This document shows positions 1 to 9,141 of a stretch of DNA of 9,141 nucleotides, piece by piece. Numbering within the stretch: position 1 is the stretch's first letter; each line of letters opens with the position of its first letter. The notes under the pieces were generated by a model that saw only the letters and a program-made list of their open reading frames with translations, did no database searches and was not told the DNA's origin. This DNA comes from Deltaproteobacteria bacterium RBG_13_61_14 (GTDB taxonomy: Bacteria; RBG-13-61-14): assembly GCA_001797815.1 (NCBI GenBank), contig MGQK01000091.1:1-9141 (forward strand). Direction: 5' to 3'. Position numbers and translations under genes: made by a program.

Positions 1-25
1 GCGGCCGTCGCCGCGGCGCGCCGCC

Positions 26-32
26 AAGGAGG
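26..32 (+). promoter_or_regulatory. Shine-Dalgarno of the small coiled-coil gene
   Basis: AAGGAGG is a full-length ribosome binding site. It lies six bases before ATG 39 but only three before the in-frame GTG at 36, so ATG 39 is the better start. The 25 bases before it are almost pure G+C and show no promoter; the unit may begin outside the window. Confidence 0.8.
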
Positions 33-38
33 ACAGTG

Positions 39-320
39 ATGAGAGGAATGTTATGGTTGGGGTCGTTTTTTGAGGCGTTCAAGGTTCTGTTTATGGGGCT
101 GGTCTTTTTCGGCTTGACCCTGGTGGTGGTGTTTGCCTATGTGGAAAAGAAATTGATCCAGGAGCGGCACAAGGTGGAAGAGCTGCGCCAGACCAAGCGG
201 AAGATGATCGCCGAGCTGGAGCGGAGGCTGGAGGAGTTGAAAACGGAGAAGGACCGCGATCATAACTCCCTGGTGGCGCGGATCACGGAATTGGAGGCGA
301 AATTGCTCAAAGGGAGTTAG
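39..320 (+). CDS. small membrane-anchored coiled-coil protein, function unknown
   Basis: This 93-residue protein is not one I recognise. It has a short N-terminal amphipathic stretch (LWLGSFFEAFKV), one transmembrane segment at about residues 16-35, then a highly charged helix from about 36 to 90. That helix has leucines and isoleucines at heptad-like spacing among many Glu, Lys and Arg residues, as in a dimeric coiled coil. Basic residues cluster just after the membrane segment, so by the positive-inside rule the coiled coil probably faces the cytoplasm. There is no enzyme motif. It ends 20 bases before the beta-lactamase-like gene on the same strand, so the two are probably co-transcribed. 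A scaffold or helper role is possible but is inference. The strong Shine-Dalgarno and consistent protein-like composition argue that it is real. Confidence 0.75.
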   Translation: MRGMLWLGSFFEAFKVLFMGLVFFGLTLVVVFAYVEKKLIQERHKVEELRQTKRKMIAELERRLEELKTEKDRDHNSLVARITELEAKLLKGS

Positions 321-340
321 CAAGAGAAAGGTAGGGACGG

Positions 341-2167
341 ATGAAAAAGAGCAAGCTCTGGCTGGGGATTGCCCTCTCGATCCTGGCGCTTTTCCTTTGC
401 GCCAGCGCCCCCAAGAAACCGGAAACCATCGCGCTCGGAGATTATGGCCCGGTCAAGGAATACCTTTCCGCCTGGATTCCCCAGGAGATGAAGAAAGCCA
501 AGGTGGTCGGGCTGAGCATCGCGCTGGTGGATGACCAGGAGATCATCTGGGCCGAAGGCTTTGGCTGGGCGGATAAGAAAAACAAAGTCCCGGCCACGGT
601 CGAGACCGTGTATCGGGTCGGGTCCATCTCCAAGCTCTTCACCGCGACCGCGGTCATGCAATTGGCCGAGCAAAACCTGGTTGACATTGACCAGCCCTTG
701 CAAACCTATCTGCCCGAGTTCTCGATCAAGACCCGTTTTCCCGAGGCCGGGCCCATTACGCCACGAACTATCATTACCCATCACTCCGGCCTACCCGGGG
801 ACCGATTCAAAGGTTGGGTCACGCCCAAGCCGGTTTCGCTCCAGGAGTTGGTGGAAGAGATCAAAGATGAGTATGTGGCTTTCCCGCCGAACCTGGTCAT
901 GTCCTATTCCAACCTGGGCGTGGGCCTTTTGGGCCGCATGGTGGAAAAAGTGAGTGGACAGGATTTCGCGGCTTACGCCGAGGACCAGGTCTTGCGGCCG
1001 CTCGGAATGACACACTCTTCTTTTCGGGTCCGGCCGGAGGTTCAGTCCCTTCTTTCCAAGGGTTATATCCGGGGCAATGAACCCGTCGAATTAATTGTCA
1101 TCCGCGATTATCCGGCCGGCTCCTTATACAGCAATGTGGCGGATTTAAGCCGTTTAATCGCCATGGTCTTTGCGGATGGGAAAAGCGGAGACCGACAAAT
1201 TTTGCAGCCGGAGACTATTGCCGAGATGCTCCGCGTTCAGAACGGCGAGGTGCCCCTGGACCTGGATTGGACCATGGGTCTGGGCTGGTGGAGAACCGAG
1301 CTGGTCGGGGGAATGCAACCTCTGGCCTATGCCGGCCGGGTGGCTCAGCATGGCGGGGATATCTTTTCTTATCATAGCATGTTGGTAACCTTGCCGGACC
1401 ACAAATTGGGAGTGGTGGTATTGGCCAATTCCGGCGCAGGAGAATTGCCCGGTCAAGTAGCGGTCGAGGCCTTGAAGATGGCTCTTCTGGCCAAGACCGG
1501 GCTCAAAGAACCGGAGCCGGAAAAACCCTCGCCGGTGATGGCTCTCTCCCCGGATGACCTTCACCAACATGAGGGTTATTATGAAACCGGGAGCGGAGCT
1601 GGAGGCGGAGTCGGACTCATGGCCGTCAGCGTTCGGAGAGGTCGCTTGCACGCCCGGCTGAAGGGAAAATCCCTGGAGAGTGCGGAGTTTATCCCCCACG
1701 CCAATGGCAATTATTCGCTCCGGCCCCTGCTCGCGGAGTTCATTCCGATCCGGATCAAAATGTTGGAGCCGTTTCAATTCTCCTTTCAGGAAATCGCGGG
1801 GTATCAGACCTTGATCGTCCATCTAGGGGATCAGCGCTTGCTCTTCGGCGAAAAGCTGGCCCCGGTTCCGATTCCCGAAGCCTGGCAAAAACGGGAGGGT
1901 CGGTGGGAGGTCGTTAATCCCGGGGAAGATACCTTGGTGCTGCCGAGTCTCCAGATAAAAGAGGAAAACGATTTTCTGATGGCTCAGATCAAGGGAGTTT
2001 TTGTAAAGGCGAAATGGAAGAGTATTGTCGCGTTGGCTCCGGTTTCCGATACCGAGGCCATCTTCATGGGTTTGGGGAGGGGCAAGGGAGAGACGATTCA
2101 CGTGATTATAAAAAATGGAGAGGAACAACTTCAGTATTCCGGCTTTGAATTCCGCCGGAAACCCTAG
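341..2167 (+). CDS. secreted serine beta-lactamase-like hydrolase (CubicO / peptidase S12 group) with beta-rich C-terminal region
   Basis: This is a 608-residue serine hydrolase of the class C beta-lactamase/penicillin-binding fold. An N-terminal signal sequence (MKKSK, then a hydrophobic stretch to about residue 22) exports it. Cys20 lies near the end but is not in a good lipobox. The three catalytic motifs are all present in order: SISK (Ser95 nucleophile, Lys98), YSN (Tyr189-Asn191) and HGG (337-339). Family features such as the HHSGLPGD loop (147-154) and LLGRMVEKVSG are clear. The fold should end near residue 390. The remaining 220 residues are beta-rich and look like one or two lipocalin-like modules, beginning at HEGYYETG and REGRWEV, as in Pab87-type S12 peptidases and DUF3471 proteins. 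Members act as esterases, D-aminopeptidases or peptidases, so the substrate cannot be read from sequence. The start is ATG 341, with an AAAGG element nine bases upstream. Local G+C appears lower than in the FecR genes. Confidence 0.93.
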   Translation: MKKSKLWLGIALSILALFLCASAPKKPETIALGDYGPVKEYLSAWIPQEMKKAKVVGLSIALVDDQEIIWAEGFGWADKKNKVPATVETVYRVGSISKLFTATAVMQLAEQNLVDIDQPLQTYLPEFSIKTRFPEAGPITPRTIITHHSGLPGDRFKGWVTPKPVSLQELVEEIKDEYVAFPPNLVMSYSNLGVGLLGRMVEKVSGQDFAAYAEDQVLRPLGMTHSSFRVRPEVQSLLSKGYIRGNEPVELIVIRDYPAGSLYSNVADLSRLIAMVFADGKSGDRQILQPETIAEMLRVQNGEVPLDLDWTMGLGWWRTELVGGMQPLAYAGRVAQHGGDIFSYHSMLVTLPDHKLGVVVLANSGAGELPGQVAVEALKMALLAKTGLKEPEPEKPSPVMALSPDDLHQHEGYYETGSGAGGGVGLMAVSVRRGRLHARLKGKSLESAEFIPHANGNYSLRPLLAEFIPIRIKMLEPFQFSFQEIAGYQTLIVHLGDQRLLFGEKLAPVPIPEAWQKREGRWEVVNPGEDTLVLPSLQIKEENDFLMAQIKGVFVKAKWKSIVALAPVSDTEAIFMGLGRGKGETIHVIIKNGEEQLQYSGFEFRRKP

Positions 2168-2170
2168 GGG
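2166..2170 (+). promoter_or_regulatory. Shine-Dalgarno of the DUF1848 gene, overlapping the upstream stop codon
   Basis: AGGGG shares its first two bases with the TAG stop of the hydrolase gene. Two adjacent GTG codons follow at 2173 and 2176. The site is five bases from the second and only two from the first, which favours 2176. The overlap implies translational coupling with the upstream gene. Confidence 0.6.
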
Positions 2171-2175
2171 CAGTG

Positions 2176-3081
2176 GTGATCATCAGCGCCAGCCGGCGGA
2201 CCGATATCCCGGCTTTTTATTCGGAGTGGTTGCTGAACCGGATCCGGGCCGGGTTCTGCGTGGTCCGCCATCCCTTCCGGCCGGAGCGGGTCAGCCGGGT
2301 TTCGCTGCGTCCCGAGGACGTGGATGCCATCGTCTTCTGGAGCAAGAATCCAAAACCCCTGCTCCCGCACCTCGCGGAGCTCGACCGGATGGGCTTCCGT
2401 TATTACTTCCAGTTCACCTTGAACGACTATTCCAGTTTGCTGGAGCCGAAGGTCCCGCCGCTCTCGGAGCGGATCGAGACCTTCCGCGCCTTGAGCCGGG
2501 TGCTCGGCCGCGGCCGGGTGATCTGGCGCTACGACCCCGTCATCCTCACCAACATCACCGACTCCGCCTACCACCGCCAATCGTTCCAAGGGCTGTGCGC
2601 GCAATTGGCCGATCACACCGAACGGGTCATGGTCAGCGTGGTGGACTATTACCGGAAGACGATACGCAACCTCAAGCGCCTGGAAGCGGAAGGCTATCGG
2701 TTTGAGCGCCGGCTGAAAGCCAACCTGGACCTGGATGAGCTCCTGAGCTTTATGGCCAAGACCGCGACCCGGTCCGGCCTGGAAATTTTCACTTGCGCCG
2801 AGGAGCGGGACTACACCGAGCTGGGAATCCGGCCGGGCCGCTGCCTTGACGGCGAGCTGATCGAGAAGCTGTGGGGCGTTAAGCGTCCCTGGAAAAAAGA
2901 CCGGGGCCAGCGCCCGGCCTGCGGGTGCGTGGTCAGCAAAGATATCGGCGAGACCGATTCCTGTATCCACCATTGCCCCTACTGCTACGCCACCAAAGAC
3001 CAGCAATTGGCCAAGGGCAAGCACGAGCTGCACGATCCCCTTTCCACCGCGCTCTTCGGCAATCCCGAGCCTTCCCCTTAA
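2176..3081 (+). CDS. DUF1848 family protein with C-terminal radical-SAM-like cysteine cluster
   Basis: This 301-residue protein matches the DUF1848 family from end to end. It begins with the family hallmark IISASRRTDIPAFY, has the VFWSKNPKPLLPHL and YYFQFTLNDY segments, and ends with a cysteine cluster: CxC (Cys249, Cys251), then CIHHCPYC (Cys263, Cys267, Cys270) followed by YATKD. The last three have the CxxxCxxC spacing that binds a 4Fe-4S cluster in radical-SAM enzymes, but at the C-terminus instead of near the N-terminus. Cys207 and Cys223 are further conserved-looking cysteines. The biochemical role of the family is unknown to me; an Fe-S or other metal site is a reasonable inference. 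The protein has no signal peptide or membrane segment and is probably cytoplasmic. The second GTG is preferred because it gives the usual family N-terminus. It lies eight bases after the hydrolase gene, so it is likely in the same operon. Confidence 0.93.
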   Translation: MIISASRRTDIPAFYSEWLLNRIRAGFCVVRHPFRPERVSRVSLRPEDVDAIVFWSKNPKPLLPHLAELDRMGFRYYFQFTLNDYSSLLEPKVPPLSERIETFRALSRVLGRGRVIWRYDPVILTNITDSAYHRQSFQGLCAQLADHTERVMVSVVDYYRKTIRNLKRLEAEGYRFERRLKANLDLDELLSFMAKTATRSGLEIFTCAEERDYTELGIRPGRCLDGELIEKLWGVKRPWKKDRGQRPACGCVVSKDIGETDSCIHHCPYCYATKDQQLAKGKHELHDPLSTALFGNPEPSP

Positions 3082-3090
3082 ATCTTTTTC

Positions 3091-3233
3091 TTAACACAAA
3101 GACACAAAGCCACTAAGTTTAAGAAAGCTAGATTGCTTGCGCATTTCCCCGTCGCAAGATCATTTCCCGTTTCCAGACCCGGATAAATTTATCTCTTCTC
3201 TTTACCTTTGAGCCTTTGTGTCTTGGTGTTTAA
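3091..3233. repeat. MITE-like non-coding element with imperfect terminal inverted repeats
   Basis: The left arm (about 3091-3127) starts TTAACACAAAGACACAAAG. The right arm (about 3196-3233), read on the minus strand, starts TTAAACACCAAGACACAAAG. The arms stay alignable for about 37 bases with a few mismatches and one-base gaps. CACAAAG/ACACAAAG repeats of this sort are widespread between genes in environmental bacteria. Between the arms is a perfect CTTGCG/CGCAAG hairpin (3136-3141 with 3153-3158). AAATCT occurs just outside each arm (3080-3085 and 3232-3237), but the left copy is a few bases away, so a target duplication is uncertain. There is no ORF inside. The element fills most of the gap between two convergent genes, and its arms could form a long RNA stem in read-through transcripts. 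No T-tract follows a stem as in a standard terminator. Confidence 0.65.
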
Positions 3234-3255
3234 ATCTGAATCACAATTTGCCGGA

Positions 3256-4587
3256 TCAACCCACCAGGAGCAGATGCACGTCCATGACATTGGTGCCGGT
3301 GGGGCCGGTGATGATCAGGTCATTAAGCGCCTGGAACAAGGGATAGGCGTCGTTGTTGAGCAGGTGGCCGCACGGGTCCAGGCCGCGCTCGCGGGAGCGG
3401 GCCAAGGTGTCGGTGGCCGCGATGGCGCCGGCCGCGTCGGTGGGCCCGTCGGCGCCGTCGGTGCCCGCGGCCAGAAACACCGTGCCCGGGATCTCCTCCA
3501 ACCCCAGCGCCACCGCCAGCGCCAGCTCCTGGCTGCGGCCGCCCTTGCCGCGGCCGCGCAAGGTGACGGTGGGTTCCCCTCCGGCGATCAGGCAGGCCGG
3601 GGCCGCCACCGGCCGGCCCTTGCGCCGGACCTCCCGGGCCAGGGCCAGGTAGAACTGGGCGATCTCCCGGGCTTCGCCGGCCACCGTGGTGGAGAGAATG
3701 AGCGGGTTCATGCCTTTCTTCCGGGCCGTGTATTCCGCGGCCTCCAGCGACATGGTGTTGGAGCCGACCACGATGTTTTGCACGCGCTGAAAAATTTCGG
3801 AGTCCGGGCCGGGCGTGTCTTCCCATTCGCCCTTCACCCCTTTTTCCAGAAGCTCCTGGATCGAGGCCGGCATTTGCCCGAGCAGGCCGTGGCGCGTTAA
3901 AACCGCGAGCGCATCGTCGAACGAGGTCGGGTCGGGCACGGTGGGGCCGGAGGCGACCACGTCGAGCCGGTCGCCGATCACGTCGGAGAGGATGAGGGTG
4001 GCGAGCGTGGCCGGATAGACCCATTCCGCCAGCCGGCCGCCCTTGACCCGGGAAAGGTGCTTGCGCACGGTGTTGACCTCGGCGATGGGCAGGCCGGAAG
4101 CCAGTAGCACTTGAGTGGCCCGGTTGAGTTCGGCCAGGGTGATGTTCCCGGCCGGGGAAACCAGGAGCGCGGAGCCGCCGCCGGAAATCAGGCAGAGCAC
4201 CAGGTCGTGCTCGCCCGCGCGCTTGGCGATCTCGATCAGTTCATCGGTGGCCCGGAGCCCGGCCTCATCCGGGAGCGGGTGGCCGGCCTCCCGCACCTCG
4301 AGGCGGCGCAGGCGCTCGCCGTAACCCGTCTTGGTAATGACCAGGCCCGCGGTGACCCGCTCGCTCAGCACCTGCTCGAGGGCCAGAGCCATGCGGGCCG
4401 AAGCCTTGCCCGCGCCGACCACGTAGATGCGCTCGAACTGGTTGAGGAAGTAATCCACGCCGCCGACGTGGAGGACGCCTTCCTTGAGGCGGAAGTGACG
4501 GAGCACGGCCTCCACCGGGTCCGCGGCCCGAAGCGCTTCCTTGAAAACGTCCCGCGCCACTTCGCGCAGACCGGTCAGCTTGTCCAT
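3256..4587 (-). CDS. gck: glycerate 2-kinase (MOFRL family)
   Basis: This 443-residue enzyme belongs to the class II glycerate kinase/MOFRL family, whose members phosphorylate D-glycerate to 2-phosphoglycerate with ATP. Older annotations call it hydroxypyruvate reductase TtuD. The N-terminal DUF4147 Rossmann-like domain shows VVGAGKAS (Gly58 to Lys61 region), ISGGGSALL (about 134-142), the VNTVRKHLSRVKGGRLA block and SDVIGD followed by ASGPTVPDPTSF. The C-terminal MOFRL domain shows AGGEPTV (335-341), GRGKGGRSQELAL and the strongly conserved AAGTDGADGPTDAAGA (373-388). Length and motif order are complete, with no missing residue that I can see. It is cytoplasmic and would feed glycerate or serine-derived carbon into lower glycolysis. 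ATG 4587 is preferred over the in-frame TTG 4593. Codon use is very GC-rich. It is co-directional with the FecR unit but separated by 138 bases and a candidate promoter of its own. Confidence 0.96.
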   Translation of the reverse strand: MDKLTGLREVARDVFKEALRAADPVEAVLRHFRLKEGVLHVGGVDYFLNQFERIYVVGAGKASARMALALEQVLSERVTAGLVITKTGYGERLRRLEVREAGHPLPDEAGLRATDELIEIAKRAGEHDLVLCLISGGGSALLVSPAGNITLAELNRATQVLLASGLPIAEVNTVRKHLSRVKGGRLAEWVYPATLATLILSDVIGDRLDVVASGPTVPDPTSFDDALAVLTRHGLLGQMPASIQELLEKGVKGEWEDTPGPDSEIFQRVQNIVVGSNTMSLEAAEYTARKKGMNPLILSTTVAGEAREIAQFYLALAREVRRKGRPVAAPACLIAGGEPTVTLRGRGKGGRSQELALAVALGLEEIPGTVFLAAGTDGADGPTDAAGAIAATDTLARSRERGLDPCGHLLNNDAYPLFQALNDLIITGPTGTNVMDVHLLLVG

Positions 4588-4593
4588 CCCCAA

Positions 4594-4600
4594 CCTCTCC
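4594..4600 (-). promoter_or_regulatory. Shine-Dalgarno of glycerate 2-kinase
   Basis: GGAGAGG on the minus strand abuts the TTG codon at 4593 with no spacer but lies six bases from ATG 4587. This decides the start in favour of ATG and removes two residues from the longest frame. Confidence 0.75.
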
Positions 4601-4634
4601 CCGGGTTAGATGCCAGTGCCGCCATGCCCTCCTC

Positions 4635-4663
4635 ATTCTAGGTGCCCGGGTTGACGAATGCAA
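4635..4663 (-). promoter_or_regulatory. candidate sigma-70 type promoter of glycerate 2-kinase
   Basis: On the minus strand TTGCAT (4663-4658) and TAGAAT (4640-4635) are separated by 17 bases. The -10 matches five of six consensus bases; the -35 matches only three. Transcription would start near 4628, giving a leader of about 40 bases. This would let the kinase be expressed separately from the FecR unit upstream. Confidence 0.35.
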
Positions 4664-4666
4664 CCC
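4648..4666. other. dyad overlapping the candidate -35 of glycerate 2-kinase
   Basis: GGGTTG (4648-4653) and CAACCC (4661-4666) form a perfect six-base inverted repeat with a seven-base centre. Outer C/G bases (CCGG on both sides) extend it with a small bulge. It spans the -35 region and could be an operator. It could also be a weak stem ending the FecR transcript, although no T-run follows on either strand. Confidence 0.35.
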
Positions 4667-4725
4667 CCGGTCGAGGCGGACAGGATTTCCAGGGTTTGCG
4701 AAAGGACCGCGGCACCCGGCCCCGA

Positions 4726-5907
4726 TCAAGGTTGATTTTGCTTAAGCCTCTGCGGCAGCGGCTGCCGGCGGAGTTCCTCCAGCCGCTGCCGGCGGCGCGC
4801 GCCTTCGATCCGGCGCCGGAGCTCCGGGTTCAAGTTCAGCCGGCCTACCGCCTCTTCCATGCCCGTGGCATAGGCGTCGAGCAGGGCCAGGTTCTGGCGG
4901 TGGATCCGAGGAAGGTCCAGGGCGTCCAGCTCTTGCCGGGTCTCCCGGATCTTGGCCCGGAATTCAGGACTGTATTGATCGGGATGGGCCTGCAGGTCCT
5001 GATCCAGCCGCTCAATCAGGTAATAACCGGCCATCATCCGGTTGTCGGCCCGCTGCAACTGCCGGGACAGCCGATACATCTCGCGGAACTGGCGGATCAC
5101 CTCCCGCTTCACCGCGGGGGTCACCCGCGCCTCCCGGCCCCGCAGCTGCTGGCGCCGCTCATACGCATCCCACCGCCGCTGCTCGCGCTTGAGCTCGGCC
5201 GCCTGGGCGGCAAAGCGTCCTTGCGTGGTCCGGACGTTCCTCGCGATCAGCCCGGGGAAAACATCGGCCCGCCGCATCAGCACCTGCTGCCGGCCGGCGG
5301 CCCATTGCCGCCACTCGTCCTCCCCGCGGCGATAGGGCGACACCGGGCCCGGCGCCGAGCCCAACTCGACCGAGGTCTCTTCCTCCGCCTTGACCGAGAC
5401 GCTCCCGGTCTCCCCTTCCACCTCCACCACGCCCTTTTCCACGCCCACCCGGGTGGACCCGTCTATCCCGACGCCGGCGCTGAAAACGGTGCCGCGGATT
5501 CCGGCCACGGCCGAAGGCGTCACCACCTCAAAGGCGGTATCGCCGTCCTGGCCCACGGCGATGTCGGCCCAGATCCAGCCCAGGTAGAGCAGCACCGAGG
5601 AGATCGCGCGGGCATTGGCGCGGCTGTCGTTGATCTCGATCCGGCTGTTCTCCTTGAGCTCGATCACGCTCTCGTCCGGGAGCAGGATCCGGGCCGAGCT
5701 CTGGACTGCCGTCTCCACGATCTCGCCGCCTTGCACCAGCATCCCGGCCTGGGCCGGACGGACGGCGCCCTCGGGCGATTGGATCTGGACCTGGCCCTGG
5801 ACCTGGTCAATAATTCCCTCTTCCACCATCGCCCCGGCCGGCAGACCCAGCACCGGCGAGAAAGCGGCCAGCAACAACAGCACTATCTCAATCATGGTCT
5901 TTTTCAT
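4726..5907 (-). CDS. exported FecR-domain protein B
   Basis: This 393-residue protein has a Sec signal peptide (MKKTMIEIVLLLLAAFSPVL, with likely cleavage after LPAGA at residue 26). A FecR-type beta domain follows at about residues 30-185. Its hallmarks are VQGQVQIQ, LVQGGEIVETA, LLPDESVIELKENSRIEI and the core TPSAVAGIRGTVF (130-142), then DGSTRVGVEKGVVEV. The C-terminal half (about 195-393) is Arg/Gln/Glu-rich helix, probably coiled coil, with no enzyme motif. Unlike FecR of iron uptake, there is no N-terminal cytoplasmic anti-sigma segment before the membrane anchor, so the protein should be periplasmic or surface-bound. Its role is unknown. It is a full-length paralogue of the FecR protein at 6757-8016. 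The open frame extends upstream to 6066, but that would run into the methyltransferase gene. ATG 5907, with GGAG six bases before it and a signal peptide, is the proper start. It is the last gene of the unit. Confidence 0.9.
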   Translation of the reverse strand: MKKTMIEIVLLLLAAFSPVLGLPAGAMVEEGIIDQVQGQVQIQSPEGAVRPAQAGMLVQGGEIVETAVQSSARILLPDESVIELKENSRIEINDSRANARAISSVLLYLGWIWADIAVGQDGDTAFEVVTPSAVAGIRGTVFSAGVGIDGSTRVGVEKGVVEVEGETGSVSVKAEEETSVELGSAPGPVSPYRRGEDEWRQWAAGRQQVLMRRADVFPGLIARNVRTTQGRFAAQAAELKREQRRWDAYERRQQLRGREARVTPAVKREVIRQFREMYRLSRQLQRADNRMMAGYYLIERLDQDLQAHPDQYSPEFRAKIRETRQELDALDLPRIHRQNLALLDAYATGMEEAVGRLNLNPELRRRIEGARRRQRLEELRRQPLPQRLKQNQP

Positions 5908-5913
5908 CTTTGT

Positions 5914-5917
5914 CTCC
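5914..5917 (-). promoter_or_regulatory. Shine-Dalgarno of FecR-domain protein B
   Basis: GGAG lies six bases before ATG 5907 on the minus strand, within the 37-base gap after the methyltransferase stop codon. It fixes the start at the signal peptide and excludes a 53-residue upstream extension. Confidence 0.7.
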
Positions 5918-5944
5918 GGGGAATTCATTATTTTGTAATCCATT

Positions 5945-6742
5945 TTACAATCTACCAACGGACGCCTCGACGGGATAACCAAACAAGTAGGTGATCCGGT
6001 ATCCTCCGCGCGAGCGGGTCTTTCCGATTTCCCACTGGTAGTGATCGCACCTAATATCCTGGACAAGCCGCTTCAACTCGACCGGGGAGTAGGTTCTAAA
6101 ATTCGAGACCATCCCATCCCAGATGATCAGGAGCGGGAGAACAGGGATCAAATAGGTCCAGAGTAGTCTTTGCCAGGAAAAGGGCCGGATCAGGGGGGTG
6201 ACCAGCCAGACGAAGAGGGGAGAAGTGAGCATGACCAGGTAGAGCGCGAGACTTCGATCGGTAAACTCAAAGATTCCGATTCCCTCGTTTTTCCTGGCCG
6301 CATCCTGCAGGATTTGTTTGGCCGCTTCGGGCGGGAAATGATGAAAAGAAGCAAACAAGGTCCGAAAGCCTTTCAAATGCGAAGGCACCTCCCGCGCGTC
6401 CACGGGCGACTCGCTGAAGTGGATCTTCCCGGGGCAGGCCGCCCGGGCCTGGCGGAAGGCTTCCAGGTTCGGGAACTTATCCGTCAAGGTTGCCTGCACC
6501 GGATAGTGCTCTTGGTTTTCGAGTTGGTCCAGAAGCAACCGGAGCGGCCCCGATCCTCCGGAACAGAGATCAATGAGGTGATGGCAATTCAATTCATCTA
6601 AGACCTGTTTCAGCCTGGGGACTAGCGGTCCATAGGGATTCAGCCTGGAACTAAAAAACTGCAAGACCTCCGTAATCATGCGGCGCCAGGATTGCGGGAA
6701 CCAATCCAAATCCTCAAATTCCAACAACTGGACCCGGCGCAT
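5945..6742 (-). CDS. class I SAM-dependent methyltransferase-like protein with membrane hairpin
   Basis: This 265-residue protein has a Rossmann-type SAM-binding core. Motif I is LIDLCSGGSGPLRLLL (about 56-71), with acidic Asp58 ahead of the glycine-rich loop. The LTDKFPN block (Asp88) fits the acidic ribose-binding position, and PVDAREVP (113-120) with FASFHHFPPE (131-139) fits the next two motifs. After the core come two hydrophobic segments, about 165-185 and 193-212, with IRPFSW between them. This suggests a membrane hairpin or monotopic attachment. The C-terminus (DGMVSNFRTYSPVEL, then ITYLFGYPVE) resembles a group of uncharacterised bacterial methyltransferase homologues that share the WDG.VS..RTY signature. 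The methyl acceptor is unknown; a lipid or membrane-embedded substrate is inference. It starts 14 bases after FecR protein A and ends 37 bases before FecR protein B, so all three are probably one transcript. Its base composition is less GC-rich than the flanking paralogues. Confidence 0.82.
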   Translation of the reverse strand: MRRVQLLEFEDLDWFPQSWRRMITEVLQFFSSRLNPYGPLVPRLKQVLDELNCHHLIDLCSGGSGPLRLLLDQLENQEHYPVQATLTDKFPNLEAFRQARAACPGKIHFSESPVDAREVPSHLKGFRTLFASFHHFPPEAAKQILQDAARKNEGIGIFEFTDRSLALYLVMLTSPLFVWLVTPLIRPFSWQRLLWTYLIPVLPLLIIWDGMVSNFRTYSPVELKRLVQDIRCDHYQWEIGKTRSRGGYRITYLFGYPVEASVGRL

Positions 6743-6756
6743 ATCTGGACCCCGGA

Positions 6757-8016
6757 TCAGGGCATCCGCGGCCTGGGCATCGGCGGCATCACCGGTTTGG
6801 GCATGGACTGGGGCGGCGGCATGGGCGGCATGGCCCCGGGGATCTGTTTCAATATCTGCTGGATCTGCAGGTTGCGCTCGAGCGGGGGCAGCCGGCCCAG
6901 GGAAGAAGCCAGGCGGTAGCGGCTGACCTGGGTTTCCAGGACCGCGGCGTAACCATTCAAGGCCAGCCGGCTCTGCTGCTGGATCTGAGGAATGTCCTTG
7001 GCCTGGGCCAGGCTCCGGTTGACCGCCTGGACCTGGCTAGGGCTGAATTTTTCCGGCGAGCGGGCCACCGCGCTCCGGGCCTGCTCGGCCAGGTAGTAAT
7101 TGCTTTCCATGCGGTGGGCCTCTTTCTGGGCCTGCCGCGCCTTCCGGTAAAGCTGGTGCACCTCGGTCGCCGCCTCCGCGCGTTCCCGCTGGTCTTTCTT
7201 GTCCTCGGTCGCGGGTTCCGCGGCCGGCTCTTCCTCCGGCTCGGCCGCCGGCTTTTCCGCCACCGGATGCTGTTCCTCGAATCCTTCGTAGGCTTCCCGG
7301 AACTCGCGGTCCCGCTCGATCAAATTGGCGCGGGCATCCAGGACCGCGGCCACCATCCGGATCACAAAGACCTCCAGGTCGGAGAACAGCGCCAGGTGAT
7401 GCTGACCCAGCCAGGTCAGCCAGAACTCGGCCTGCTCGGAATAAGAGCCCGTGGCCTCGGGCGCCCGCTCGTATCCGGCCTCCCCGGTCTCGTCCCGGCC
7501 CAGTCGGAGAGAGCCGGCCTCGTTCTCCATCACTGCCCGGCCTTCGCGCACCCCCACCCGGGTGCTGCCGTCCTCCGCCACCGCCACCAAGAGCTCGGTG
7601 CCGCGCACGCCCGCCACCGCGGTGGCCGCTTCCACTTCAAAGGCATAATCGGCGACCGTCCGGGCCGTGACCTTAGCCCAGATCCAGCCGACGTAAACCA
7701 GCACCGAGGAAACGCCCCGGGGGTTGAGCCGGCTGTCGTTGATCTGCACCCGGGAGTTGGGCCGCACTTCCAAAAGCGAGCGGTCCACCAGGGTGATTTT
7801 CACCCGGCCGTCCGCCTGGGTCTCGATGATCTCGCCGCCGCGCACCACCTCGCCCGGCTTGGCCGGCCGCGACCGGCCCCGGCTGTTCAGCACCGCTGCC
7901 TCGCCGCTCACCTCGGTGATGACACCTTCCTCCAATGGACCGGAATCATCCGCGGCCGGCATGGCCCCGGAAAGCGCCACGGCCATGAGCAAAGTCGCCA
8001 TCACCAGACGTTTCAA
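6757..8016 (-). CDS. exported FecR-domain protein A with Met/Pro-rich tail
   Basis: This 419-residue protein has a signal peptide (MKRLVMATLLMAVALSG, cleavage near residue 21-22). A FecR-type domain covers about 28-175, with EVVRGGEIIETQ, LVDRSLLEVRPNSRVQINDSR, the segment GVSSVLVYVGWIWA and the core ATAVAGVRGTELL (131-143), then DGSTRVGVREGRAV. A helical region follows, interrupted at about 249-275 by an acidic Ala/Pro/Glu linker (PVAEKPAAEPEEEPAAEP). The protein ends in residues 394-419, which contain six Met and twelve Pro. The first 170 residues align without a gap to FecR protein B, and the later YYLAEQ and SP motifs match its YYLIER and SP motifs, so the two are duplicates. No anti-sigma segment or catalytic site is seen. 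It is first in the minus-strand unit. The TTG start is accepted because GGAGGG lies five bases before it and it gives a normal signal peptide. Confidence 0.9.
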   Translation of the reverse strand: MKRLVMATLLMAVALSGAMPAADDSGPLEEGVITEVSGEAAVLNSRGRSRPAKPGEVVRGGEIIETQADGRVKITLVDRSLLEVRPNSRVQINDSRLNPRGVSSVLVYVGWIWAKVTARTVADYAFEVEAATAVAGVRGTELLVAVAEDGSTRVGVREGRAVMENEAGSLRLGRDETGEAGYERAPEATGSYSEQAEFWLTWLGQHHLALFSDLEVFVIRMVAAVLDARANLIERDREFREAYEGFEEQHPVAEKPAAEPEEEPAAEPATEDKKDQRERAEAATEVHQLYRKARQAQKEAHRMESNYYLAEQARSAVARSPEKFSPSQVQAVNRSLAQAKDIPQIQQQSRLALNGYAAVLETQVSRYRLASSLGRLPPLERNLQIQQILKQIPGAMPPMPPPQSMPKPVMPPMPRPRMP

Positions 8017-8021
8017 TTTTG

Positions 8022-8027
8022 CCCTCC
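8022..8027 (-). promoter_or_regulatory. Shine-Dalgarno supporting a TTG start for FecR-domain protein A
   Basis: GGAGGG on the minus strand is five bases from TTG 8016. The next ATG, five codons in, would be too far from this site and would lose the positive N-region of the signal peptide. Confidence 0.75.
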
Positions 8028-8048
8028 AGGATCAGGACGGATGTCTCA

Positions 8049-8094
8049 CCATACCATCCCCGGCCCGCCGAGGCAACCGCCAAGCTTCATAGGG
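8049..8094 (-). repeat. leader block, minus-strand copy
   Basis: Read on the minus strand, this block runs CCCTATG, AAGCTTGGCGGTTGCC, TCGGCGGG, CCGGGG, then TGGTATGG. The same ordered words occur in the + copy at 8216-8272, upstream of the other divergent gene. It ends about 33 bases before the TTG start of FecR protein A. The TGGTATG resembles a sigma-54 -24 element, but the matching -12 (TTGC) is missing here. Confidence 0.5.
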
Positions 8095-8152
8095 AATACG
8101 GCGGGCGGGCGGAAATATGGGGGGAAGCCCGTCAAAGCGGCGAGTCCGGTCC

Positions 8153-8168
8153 AGTCAAATCTTTGACT
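8153..8168. promoter_or_regulatory. perfect palindrome, candidate activator binding site
   Basis: AGTCAAA and TTTGACT flank a two-base centre, giving a 7+7 perfect inverted repeat. A further GTCAAA half-site lies 23 bases to the left (8131-8136). The palindrome centre is about 130 bases upstream of the start predicted from the sigma-54 promoter, a normal distance for an enhancer-binding-protein site. It could serve both divergent genes. The protein that binds it is not encoded in the window. Confidence 0.5.
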
Positions 8169-8170
8169 TT

Positions 8171-8200
8171 TTCAGGTCCTGGGGTCGAGAGAGGACCGAA
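8171..8200. other. stem-loop or dyad in the divergent region
   Basis: GGTCCT (8175-8180) pairs with AGGACC (8192-8197). TTC (8171-8173) pairs with GAA (8198-8200) across a single unpaired A, giving nine pairs around an 11-base loop. No T-run follows, so it is not a standard terminator. It may be a second protein site or part of a leader if transcription begins further left. Confidence 0.4.
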
Positions 8201-8213
8201 GAAACAATTTCTT
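8199..8213. other. short perfect hairpin AAGAAA/TTTCTT
   Basis: AAGAAA (8199-8204) and TTTCTT (8208-8213) pair around a three-base loop. It shares two bases with the preceding stem, so the two structures are partly exclusive. It is weak in RNA; an AT-rich protein site is equally possible. Confidence 0.3.
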
Positions 8214-8215
8214 AA

Positions 8216-8272
8216 CCTCTGAAAAGCCTTGCGGTTTCCCGGCGGGGTCGAGCGGTCCGGCCCCTGGTATGG
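8216..8272 (+). repeat. leader block, plus-strand copy
   Basis: This block reads CCTCTG, AAAAGCCTTGCGGTTTCCC, GGCGGGG, a short extra segment with GGCCCC, then TGGTATGG. It matches the minus copy at 8049-8094 in word order, so the two copies form an inverted pair about 120 bases apart. Its right end is the -24 element of the sigma-54 promoter. If that promoter is the only one, the block acts as DNA; if another promoter lies upstream, it would be part of the RNA leader. Confidence 0.5.
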
Positions 8273-8280
8273 GTATTGCT
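8265..8280 (+). promoter_or_regulatory. sigma-54 (RpoN) -24/-12 promoter
   Basis: TGGTATGGGTATTGCT fits the sigma-54 consensus TGGYAYR-N4-TTGCW at every defined position. The invariant GG and GC are exactly ten bases apart. Transcription should begin near 8291, leaving a leader of about 46 bases before GTG 8337. Such promoters need an enhancer-binding ATPase, and the palindrome at 8153-8168 is suitably placed for one. Confidence 0.6.
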
Positions 8281-8307
8281 TGAACCTTGAACCATAAACC
8301 AGGAACC
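8280..8307 (+). repeat. four heptanucleotide units ending in AACC
   Basis: AACC recurs at exact seven-base intervals (8283, 8290, 8297, 8304). The first two units are identical TTGAACC; the next two are ATAAACC and AGGAACC. They lie between the -12 element and the ribosome binding site, so mostly in the leader. ACCAGG here (8298-8303) can also pair with CCTGGT at 8263-8268. Confidence 0.55.
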
Positions 8308-8322
8308 ATCTTGGTGTTTTGG

Positions 8323-8331
8323 AAAAGGAGG
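8323..8331 (+). promoter_or_regulatory. Shine-Dalgarno deciding the GTG start of the third FecR-like gene
   Basis: AAAAGGAGG is a very strong site five bases before GTG 8337. The longer frame would begin at TTG 8319, before the site, and would make the site itself coding, so GTG is preferred. Confidence 0.85.
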
Positions 8332-8336
8332 CAACC

Positions 8337-9137
8337 GTGATTCGAAGCAAAGTTTTAACCGGCATGGGACTGGCTGCGCTGATCCTGGGAGGATGGGCGC
8401 TCGGGAGCATGGTTTTGGCGGAAAATCCCGCCAACCAGGCGGTGGCTTCCATCAGCCGGTTTACCGGAGAGGTCCGGATCCAGCAGCACGGCCAATGGAT
8501 CCCGGCCTATCGCACCGCCTTCCTTTTCTCGGGGGACCAGGTGATGACCGGCAAGGGCCGGGCCGAGGTGCAGTTCACGGATGGAAGCCTTCTGACTCTT
8601 ACCCAGTTTTGCACGGTGACGGTGCGGGAGGATGCCGCGGACAGCTCCTGGCTGGGCCTGTTCCAGCAGGAGTTCACCCGGCGGACCGTGGCCCTGGCCC
8701 AGGGCAAGCTCTGGTTCGACGTGCGGCCGGAGACGGGAGTGGAGACGGCGCTGGAAACGCCCACCGTGGTCTGCGGCATCCTGGGCACGGCCGGGGAGAT
8801 CGGGCACAACGCCTCCCAGGGCTCGGTGGTGGGCCTGAGCCGGGGTCTGGCCCAGGTGACCAGCAAGGCCACCGGCTTAAGCGTCCGGCTGCGGGCCAAC
8901 CAGCGCACCCGGGTCACCGGGGAAGGTCCGCCGGAGCCGCCGGAGTCCTATACGCCTCCTCCTCCGCCGCTGGTCGAGCTTTCGGCGGATGCCATCCCCG
9001 ACCAGCCCGAGCCTCTCTTTACCGGCAGGGAACCCGGCGAGAAGTTCGGCCCCGGCGCCGGCGAAGGAGAATTCCAGGTCAACCTGCCGGCGCCGCCCAC
9101 CGGCGGGGACAGCGGCAGCGGCAGCGTCTCGCCGTAA
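8337..9137 (+). CDS. secreted FecR-like protein with Pro-rich C-terminal tail
   Basis: This 266-residue protein has a signal peptide (VIRSKVLTGMGLAALILGGW, with likely cleavage after VLA at residue 28). One FecR-type beta domain covers about residues 36-195. Visible elements are ISRFTGEVRIQ, LFSGDQVMTGKGRAEVQFTDGSLLTL, ALAQGKLWFDV and TPTVVCGILGTAGEIG, where the usual RGT of the family core reads LGT. The mature protein has only two cysteines, Cys92 and Cys146, which could form a disulphide. The last 70 residues are low-complexity and rich in Pro, Glu and Gly (PPEPPESYTPPPPP, then a Gly/Ser end), like a cell-wall or extracellular spacer. No anchor or sorting signal is visible. It is only distantly related to the two FecR proteins on the other strand. 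The sigma-54 promoter upstream implies tightly activated expression. The gene is complete, ending four bases before the window edge. Confidence 0.85.
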   Translation: MIRSKVLTGMGLAALILGGWALGSMVLAENPANQAVASISRFTGEVRIQQHGQWIPAYRTAFLFSGDQVMTGKGRAEVQFTDGSLLTLTQFCTVTVREDAADSSWLGLFQQEFTRRTVALAQGKLWFDVRPETGVETALETPTVVCGILGTAGEIGHNASQGSVVGLSRGLAQVTSKATGLSVRLRANQRTRVTGEGPPEPPESYTPPPPPLVELSADAIPDQPEPLFTGREPGEKFGPGAGEGEFQVNLPAPPTGGDSGSGSVSP

Positions 9138-9141
9138 GTTC

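Follow-up and report, generated by a model that had tools for sequence, protein, structure and literature searches.

FecR-domain proteins beside a Wzy-type exopolysaccharide cluster in Deltaproteobacteria bacterium RBG_13_61_14, with a possible accessory role in polysaccharide export

Results

Organization of the locus

The window analysed here, a DNA stretch of 9,141 nt, comprises bases 1-9141 of a 25,360-bp contig (C91) in a genome of 4.7 Mb that is about 95% complete; its left edge is the contig end, and its right edge is a 75-nt run of N (contig positions 9142-9216). Three FecR-domain proteins of 266-419 aa and one methyltransferase are encoded around a divergent control region (Table 1). 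The fecR2, methyltransferase and fecR1 genes follow one another on one strand with intergenic spacings of 14 and 37 nt, and are probably co-transcribed; FecR2 and FecR3 are transcribed divergently. An earlier reading of this DNA made without database searches (the sequence-only reading) had described the FecR genes as arranged around one divergent region, with a membrane-associated methyltransferase between two of them, and our gene calls agree with that layout. The best start of FecR1 is the ATG at 5907, preceded by GGAG, and was set there because the longer ORF would overlap the methyltransferase; FecR2 starts with TTG (preceded by GGAGGG), and the best start of FecR3 is the GTG at 8337 (preceded by AGGAGG).

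Table 1. Features of the FecR locus; positions are those of the window.
Feature	Position	Strand	Description
FecR1	4726..5907	-	signal-peptide-like segment, FecR domain, long helical C-terminal part
Methyltransferase ORF	5945..6742	-	class I SAM-dependent, two hydrophobic segments
FecR2	6757..8016	-	signal-peptide-like segment, FecR domain, helical region, Pro-rich tail
Divergent control region between FecR2 and FecR3	8017..8336		intergenic
Sigma-54-like -24/-12 site TGGTATGGGTATTGCT (GG-N10-GC)	8265..8280	+	2 mismatches to consensus
FecR3	8337..9137	+	signal-peptide-like segment, FecR domain, Pro-rich tail

The sigma-54-like site in the control region has an intact GG-N10-GC core. Such matches are expected by chance at 1.16 per window, so that the site alone proves nothing; control of FecR3 by sigma-54 is nevertheless suggested, since the site lies 56 nt ahead of the FecR3 start on the same strand and, by our reading, is the only intergenic one among the 4 core-intact sites in five scanned stretches of this genome. 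An rpoN gene is present in the genome (contig C123). Matches to sigma-70 promoters and terminators were at chance level. We also observed a 10-mer, GAGGCAACCG, near both ends of the divergent region (8070-8079 and 8328-8337), and a repeat of AACCTTGAACCAT at 8283-8309, right after the sigma-54-like site; both may be due to chance.

Domains and fold of the FecR proteins

All three proteins match the Pfam FecR family above its curated cut-off (E-values of 6e-15 for FecR1, 6e-13 for FecR2, and 3e-8 for FecR3), and each begins with a hydrophobic, signal-peptide-like segment, as estimated from hydropathy rather than with a dedicated predictor. This segment is all that precedes the FecR domain: there is no cytoplasmic domain followed by a transmembrane helix, and the Pfam search gave no match to an N-terminal anti-sigma domain in any of the three, in line with the earlier description of exported FecR-like proteins that lack the anti-sigma segment. 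FecR1 and FecR2 are paralogues (33% identity in the alignment), in both of which the FecR domain is followed by a long helical part.

The structural model of FecR2 has a low overall pLDDT (55.5), with residues 30-90 modelled confidently. Its FecR region resembles the signalling domain of PupR (6ovk, Z 11.0), the FecR protein 4m0h of Parabacteroides (Z 10.2), and a domain that anchors an ice-binding adhesin to the cell surface (5ix9, Z 10.8; sequence profile E 6e-7), which we take to be a LapA-type retention module; the 5ix9 match covers the initial portion of this region. For the helical half of FecR2, modelled with low pLDDT, there were generic coiled-coil matches only. Among NCBIfam models the best named matches are the leptospiral proteins Lsa33 (E 4e-15 for FecR2) and LipL45, with scores far under the curated cut-offs (55.8 versus 420), so only a shared domain is supported; the retention module NF033682 scored 18-37 bits in FecR1-FecR3, against a cut-off of 50.

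FecR-domain proteins are usually annotated as iron regulators, and at least one FecR match is present in 77 of 144 diverse genomes. Neither FecI nor a TonB receptor turned up in the proteins of the window or in those tested elsewhere on the 25.4-kb contig, which extends beyond the window the earlier statement that no iron-uptake partner is encoded within it; the only Plug domain detected genome-wide is on contig C74. Since the surroundings showed neither a sigma factor nor a TonB receptor, and the proteins no anti-sigma domain, we rejected iron signalling and consider it very unlikely that the locus serves iron regulation. The annotation as iron regulator is probably wrong for FecR-domain proteins that carry a signal peptide.

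A polysaccharide export operon beyond the gap

The window had been cut at the N gap just before a set of polysaccharide export genes starts, so this cluster was invisible to the sequence-only reading. Past the gap, on the strand of FecR3, the contig encodes in order a beta-barrel porin (BBP2_2, E 7e-18; weakly EpsL), an EpsE-like OPX protein of 265 aa (Poly_export, E 6e-22, and SLBB) with no match to an outer-membrane-spanning domain, a Wzz/GNVR co-polymerase with a tyrosine kinase domain, a Wzy-type ligase/polymerase, and an EPS sugar transferase (TIGR03025, above cut-off). The beta-barrel gene overlaps the start of the OPX gene, and its own start codon falls inside the N gap. A TPR protein, a glycosyltransferase, an oxidoreductase, a second Wzy-type protein, a glycosyltransferase, a radical SAM/SPASM protein, and another glycosyltransferase follow. 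This is a Wzy-type exopolysaccharide cluster with the short-OPX/beta-barrel arrangement seen in Myxococcus, and since its genes follow the gap on the same strand, the export operon probably begins with FecR3. Of the five FecR genes in the genome, three lie no more than 5 kb from a single OPX gene, one of only two detected genome-wide.

We rejected an exosortase-type (XrtA/XrtB) EPS cluster: Exosortase_EpsH has no match in the genome (about 95% complete), although the barrel, OPX and kinase resemble EpsL, EpsE and EpsF/EpsG below cut-off.

FecR and OPX genes elsewhere

We searched 144 genomes, nearly all from different families, for both FecR and Poly_export, and compiled the lists by hand. With this genome left out, FecR lay within 10 kb of OPX in 3 of about 146 instances among the matches listed, versus 1.2 expected, which is not significant; a general FecR-OPX enrichment is thus not shown, and the pairing recurs but is rare. 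The clearest recurrence is on a contig (C48) of a genome from another family of the same domain (G149), where OPX-Wzz-FecR and FecR-OPX-Wzz form two divergent operons; Pfam confirmed the identity of all six products. The two FecR proteins there look membrane-anchored rather than cleaved, and no barrel gene is adjacent. One of the co-polymerases (Wzz/kinase; L149:7315-9864) has a carboxypeptidase-regulatory-like domain inserted mid-protein. No closely related locus was found in two other genomes of the phylum that we examined, whose FecR genes lie elsewhere.

The present genome has two further FecR genes. The fourth FecR protein (contig C71; L042:9065-10267) has a helical C-terminal part and is 28% identical to FecR2; its gene is in an apparent operon with LPP20-type lipoproteins. 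The fifth, with a signal-peptide-like start, belongs to a trio with a TPR protein and a TIG-domain protein (contig C73; L043:6079-10214), and the two other genomes of its order (L129 and L130) have this trio as well. FecR-domain genes are unusually many in two of the genomes, G031 (12 genes) and G118 (14 genes).

The methyltransferase

The ORF between FecR2 and FecR1 encodes a class I SAM methyltransferase of a widespread unnamed family. It carries the motif DLCSGGSGP, and D58, G62, G65 and D88 are invariant in 30 relatives; its AlphaFold model (pLDDT 92.5) matches EgtD, Coq5 and DnrK in the PDB, and the hydrophobic segments, identified by hydropathy, are at residues 163-185 and 193-212. One scan gave 531 candidate relatives; the family scores below Pfam cut-offs, is without a solved relative by sequence, and seems uncharacterised.

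The sequence-only reading had joined this gene and the three FecR genes into a four-gene system, and had itself named homologous loci in which they do not cluster as grounds for giving the idea up. Such loci are what we found: the DNA flanking 80 methyltransferase relatives (41-53% identity, from many phyla), 1.36 Mb in total, gave no FecR-domain ORF in a search with a FecR profile that recovered 21 of 21 known FecR neighbourhoods even if built from the five domains of this genome alone. Conversely, the methyltransferase is in none of the 21 FecR neighbourhoods checked. The methyltransferase therefore probably does not belong to the FecR system, and a conserved module of the two, with no co-occurrence in 80 loci, is already largely refuted.

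Discussion

We propose, with a probability of roughly 45%, that FecR3 has an accessory, docking role in polysaccharide export, with FecR1 and FecR2, tied to export by position alone, as its probable partners. In this model, a cluster for making and exporting exopolysaccharide begins at the locus, with FecR3 exported to the periplasm and made together with the short OPX protein, the beta-barrel porin and the Wzz-type co-polymerase kinase, which together would form a composite polysaccharide exporter. The FecR domain of FecR3 probably docks on the periplasmic face of this exporter, by analogy with FecR itself, which docks on an outer-membrane protein, and with giant adhesins, which this fold holds back at the pore that exports them; the tail rich in proline would be a flexible tether. 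FecR2 and FecR1, products of the divergent operon, would be its partners in the periplasm, bearing long helical arms and acting in that same layer of the envelope; the methyltransferase would be a passenger of their operon. LapA-type retention modules are periplasmic and hold the adhesin at a TolC-like pore (PMC13090378). In two known systems, then, the FecR fold works at outer-membrane conduits; this prompted the docking model but does not prove it. The earlier suggestion of a role in the envelope, unrelated to iron uptake, is therefore one that we keep; the locus, which it could not match to a named system, can be tied to a named kind through the adjoining export operon.

In a broader version, which we regard as unlikely, the FecR fold would be a module of general use that docks, from the periplasm, on outer-membrane conduits: in FecR it docks on TonB receptors, in the retention module it holds adhesins at TolC-like pores, and here it would be a previously unrecognised subunit of a composite OPX/beta-barrel polysaccharide exporter.

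Several other explanations have to be weighed against the docking model. The FecR proteins may be periplasmic sensors that pass an envelope signal to a separate signalling partner controlling biofilm or polysaccharide genes, as suggested by the FecR2 fold, which is that of FecR signalling domains, and by a biofilm-regulating operon of Burkholderia that encodes a LysM-FecR protein and a CHASE2 histidine kinase (PMC5192318); this, too, we find unlikely, as neither the window proteins nor the other contig proteins tested include a histidine kinase, cyclase, sigma factor or FecA-type transducer. It is improbable that they have a structural or binding function at the surface or in the periplasm, similar to LipL45 and Lsa33 of Leptospira and unlinked to polysaccharide export: these two are the best named matches, and other FecR genes of the genome accompany LPP20-type lipoproteins or the TPR and TIG-domain proteins, but the scores support the shared domain alone, and FecR3 adjoins exporter genes. 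The latter, which run in the same direction as FecR3, also make it rather improbable that FecR genes and an unrelated EPS cluster lie side by side merely by chance; the enrichment outside this genome, not significant among the matches listed, would fit a chance neighbourhood, but two further operons with FecR, OPX and Wzz are found in G149. An envelope-modification system of the methyltransferase and the FecR proteins, as first suggested, is highly improbable, the close spacing within their operon being outweighed by their absence from each other's neighbourhoods in other genomes.

Our literature search returned no relevant paper linking FecR with OPX or Wzc, and FecR does not occur in the two papers describing OPX/beta-barrel translocons (PMC9601211, PMC9603273). 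If FecR3 is part of the exporter, this would give a concrete function to part of the FecR-domain family, and a new component to a polysaccharide-export system that was described only in 2022.

Comparison with known systems

The FecR proteins of this locus share the periplasmic FecR domain and its fold (6ovk, 4m0h) with the FecR/PupR anti-sigma regulators, but differ from them in having a signal-peptide-like N-terminus in place of the cytoplasmic anti-sigma domain, and in having no FecI or TonB receptor nearby. As in the Burkholderia LysM-FecR/CHASE2 operon (PMC5192318), there is an exported FecR-domain protein, which in Burkholderia is linked to a biofilm phenotype, but the locus has no LysM domain and no two-component system. 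The likeness to the retention module of the ice-binding adhesin (5ix9), in profile and in fold, spans the first part of the FecR region; here, however, the domain is not at the end of a giant adhesin and scores below the NCBIfam cut-off, and no LapG, LapD or type I secretion genes were seen at the locus. Short OPX proteins with beta-barrels form an established kind of translocon, with EpsY/EpsX and WzaX/WzpX of Myxococcus xanthus as examples (PMC9601211, PMC9603273). The cluster on C91 has the same short OPX protein, adjacent barrel gene, Wzz-type co-polymerase with kinase, and Wzy-type genes, but it probably starts with an exported FecR-domain protein, and its barrel is BBP2_2/EpsL-like.
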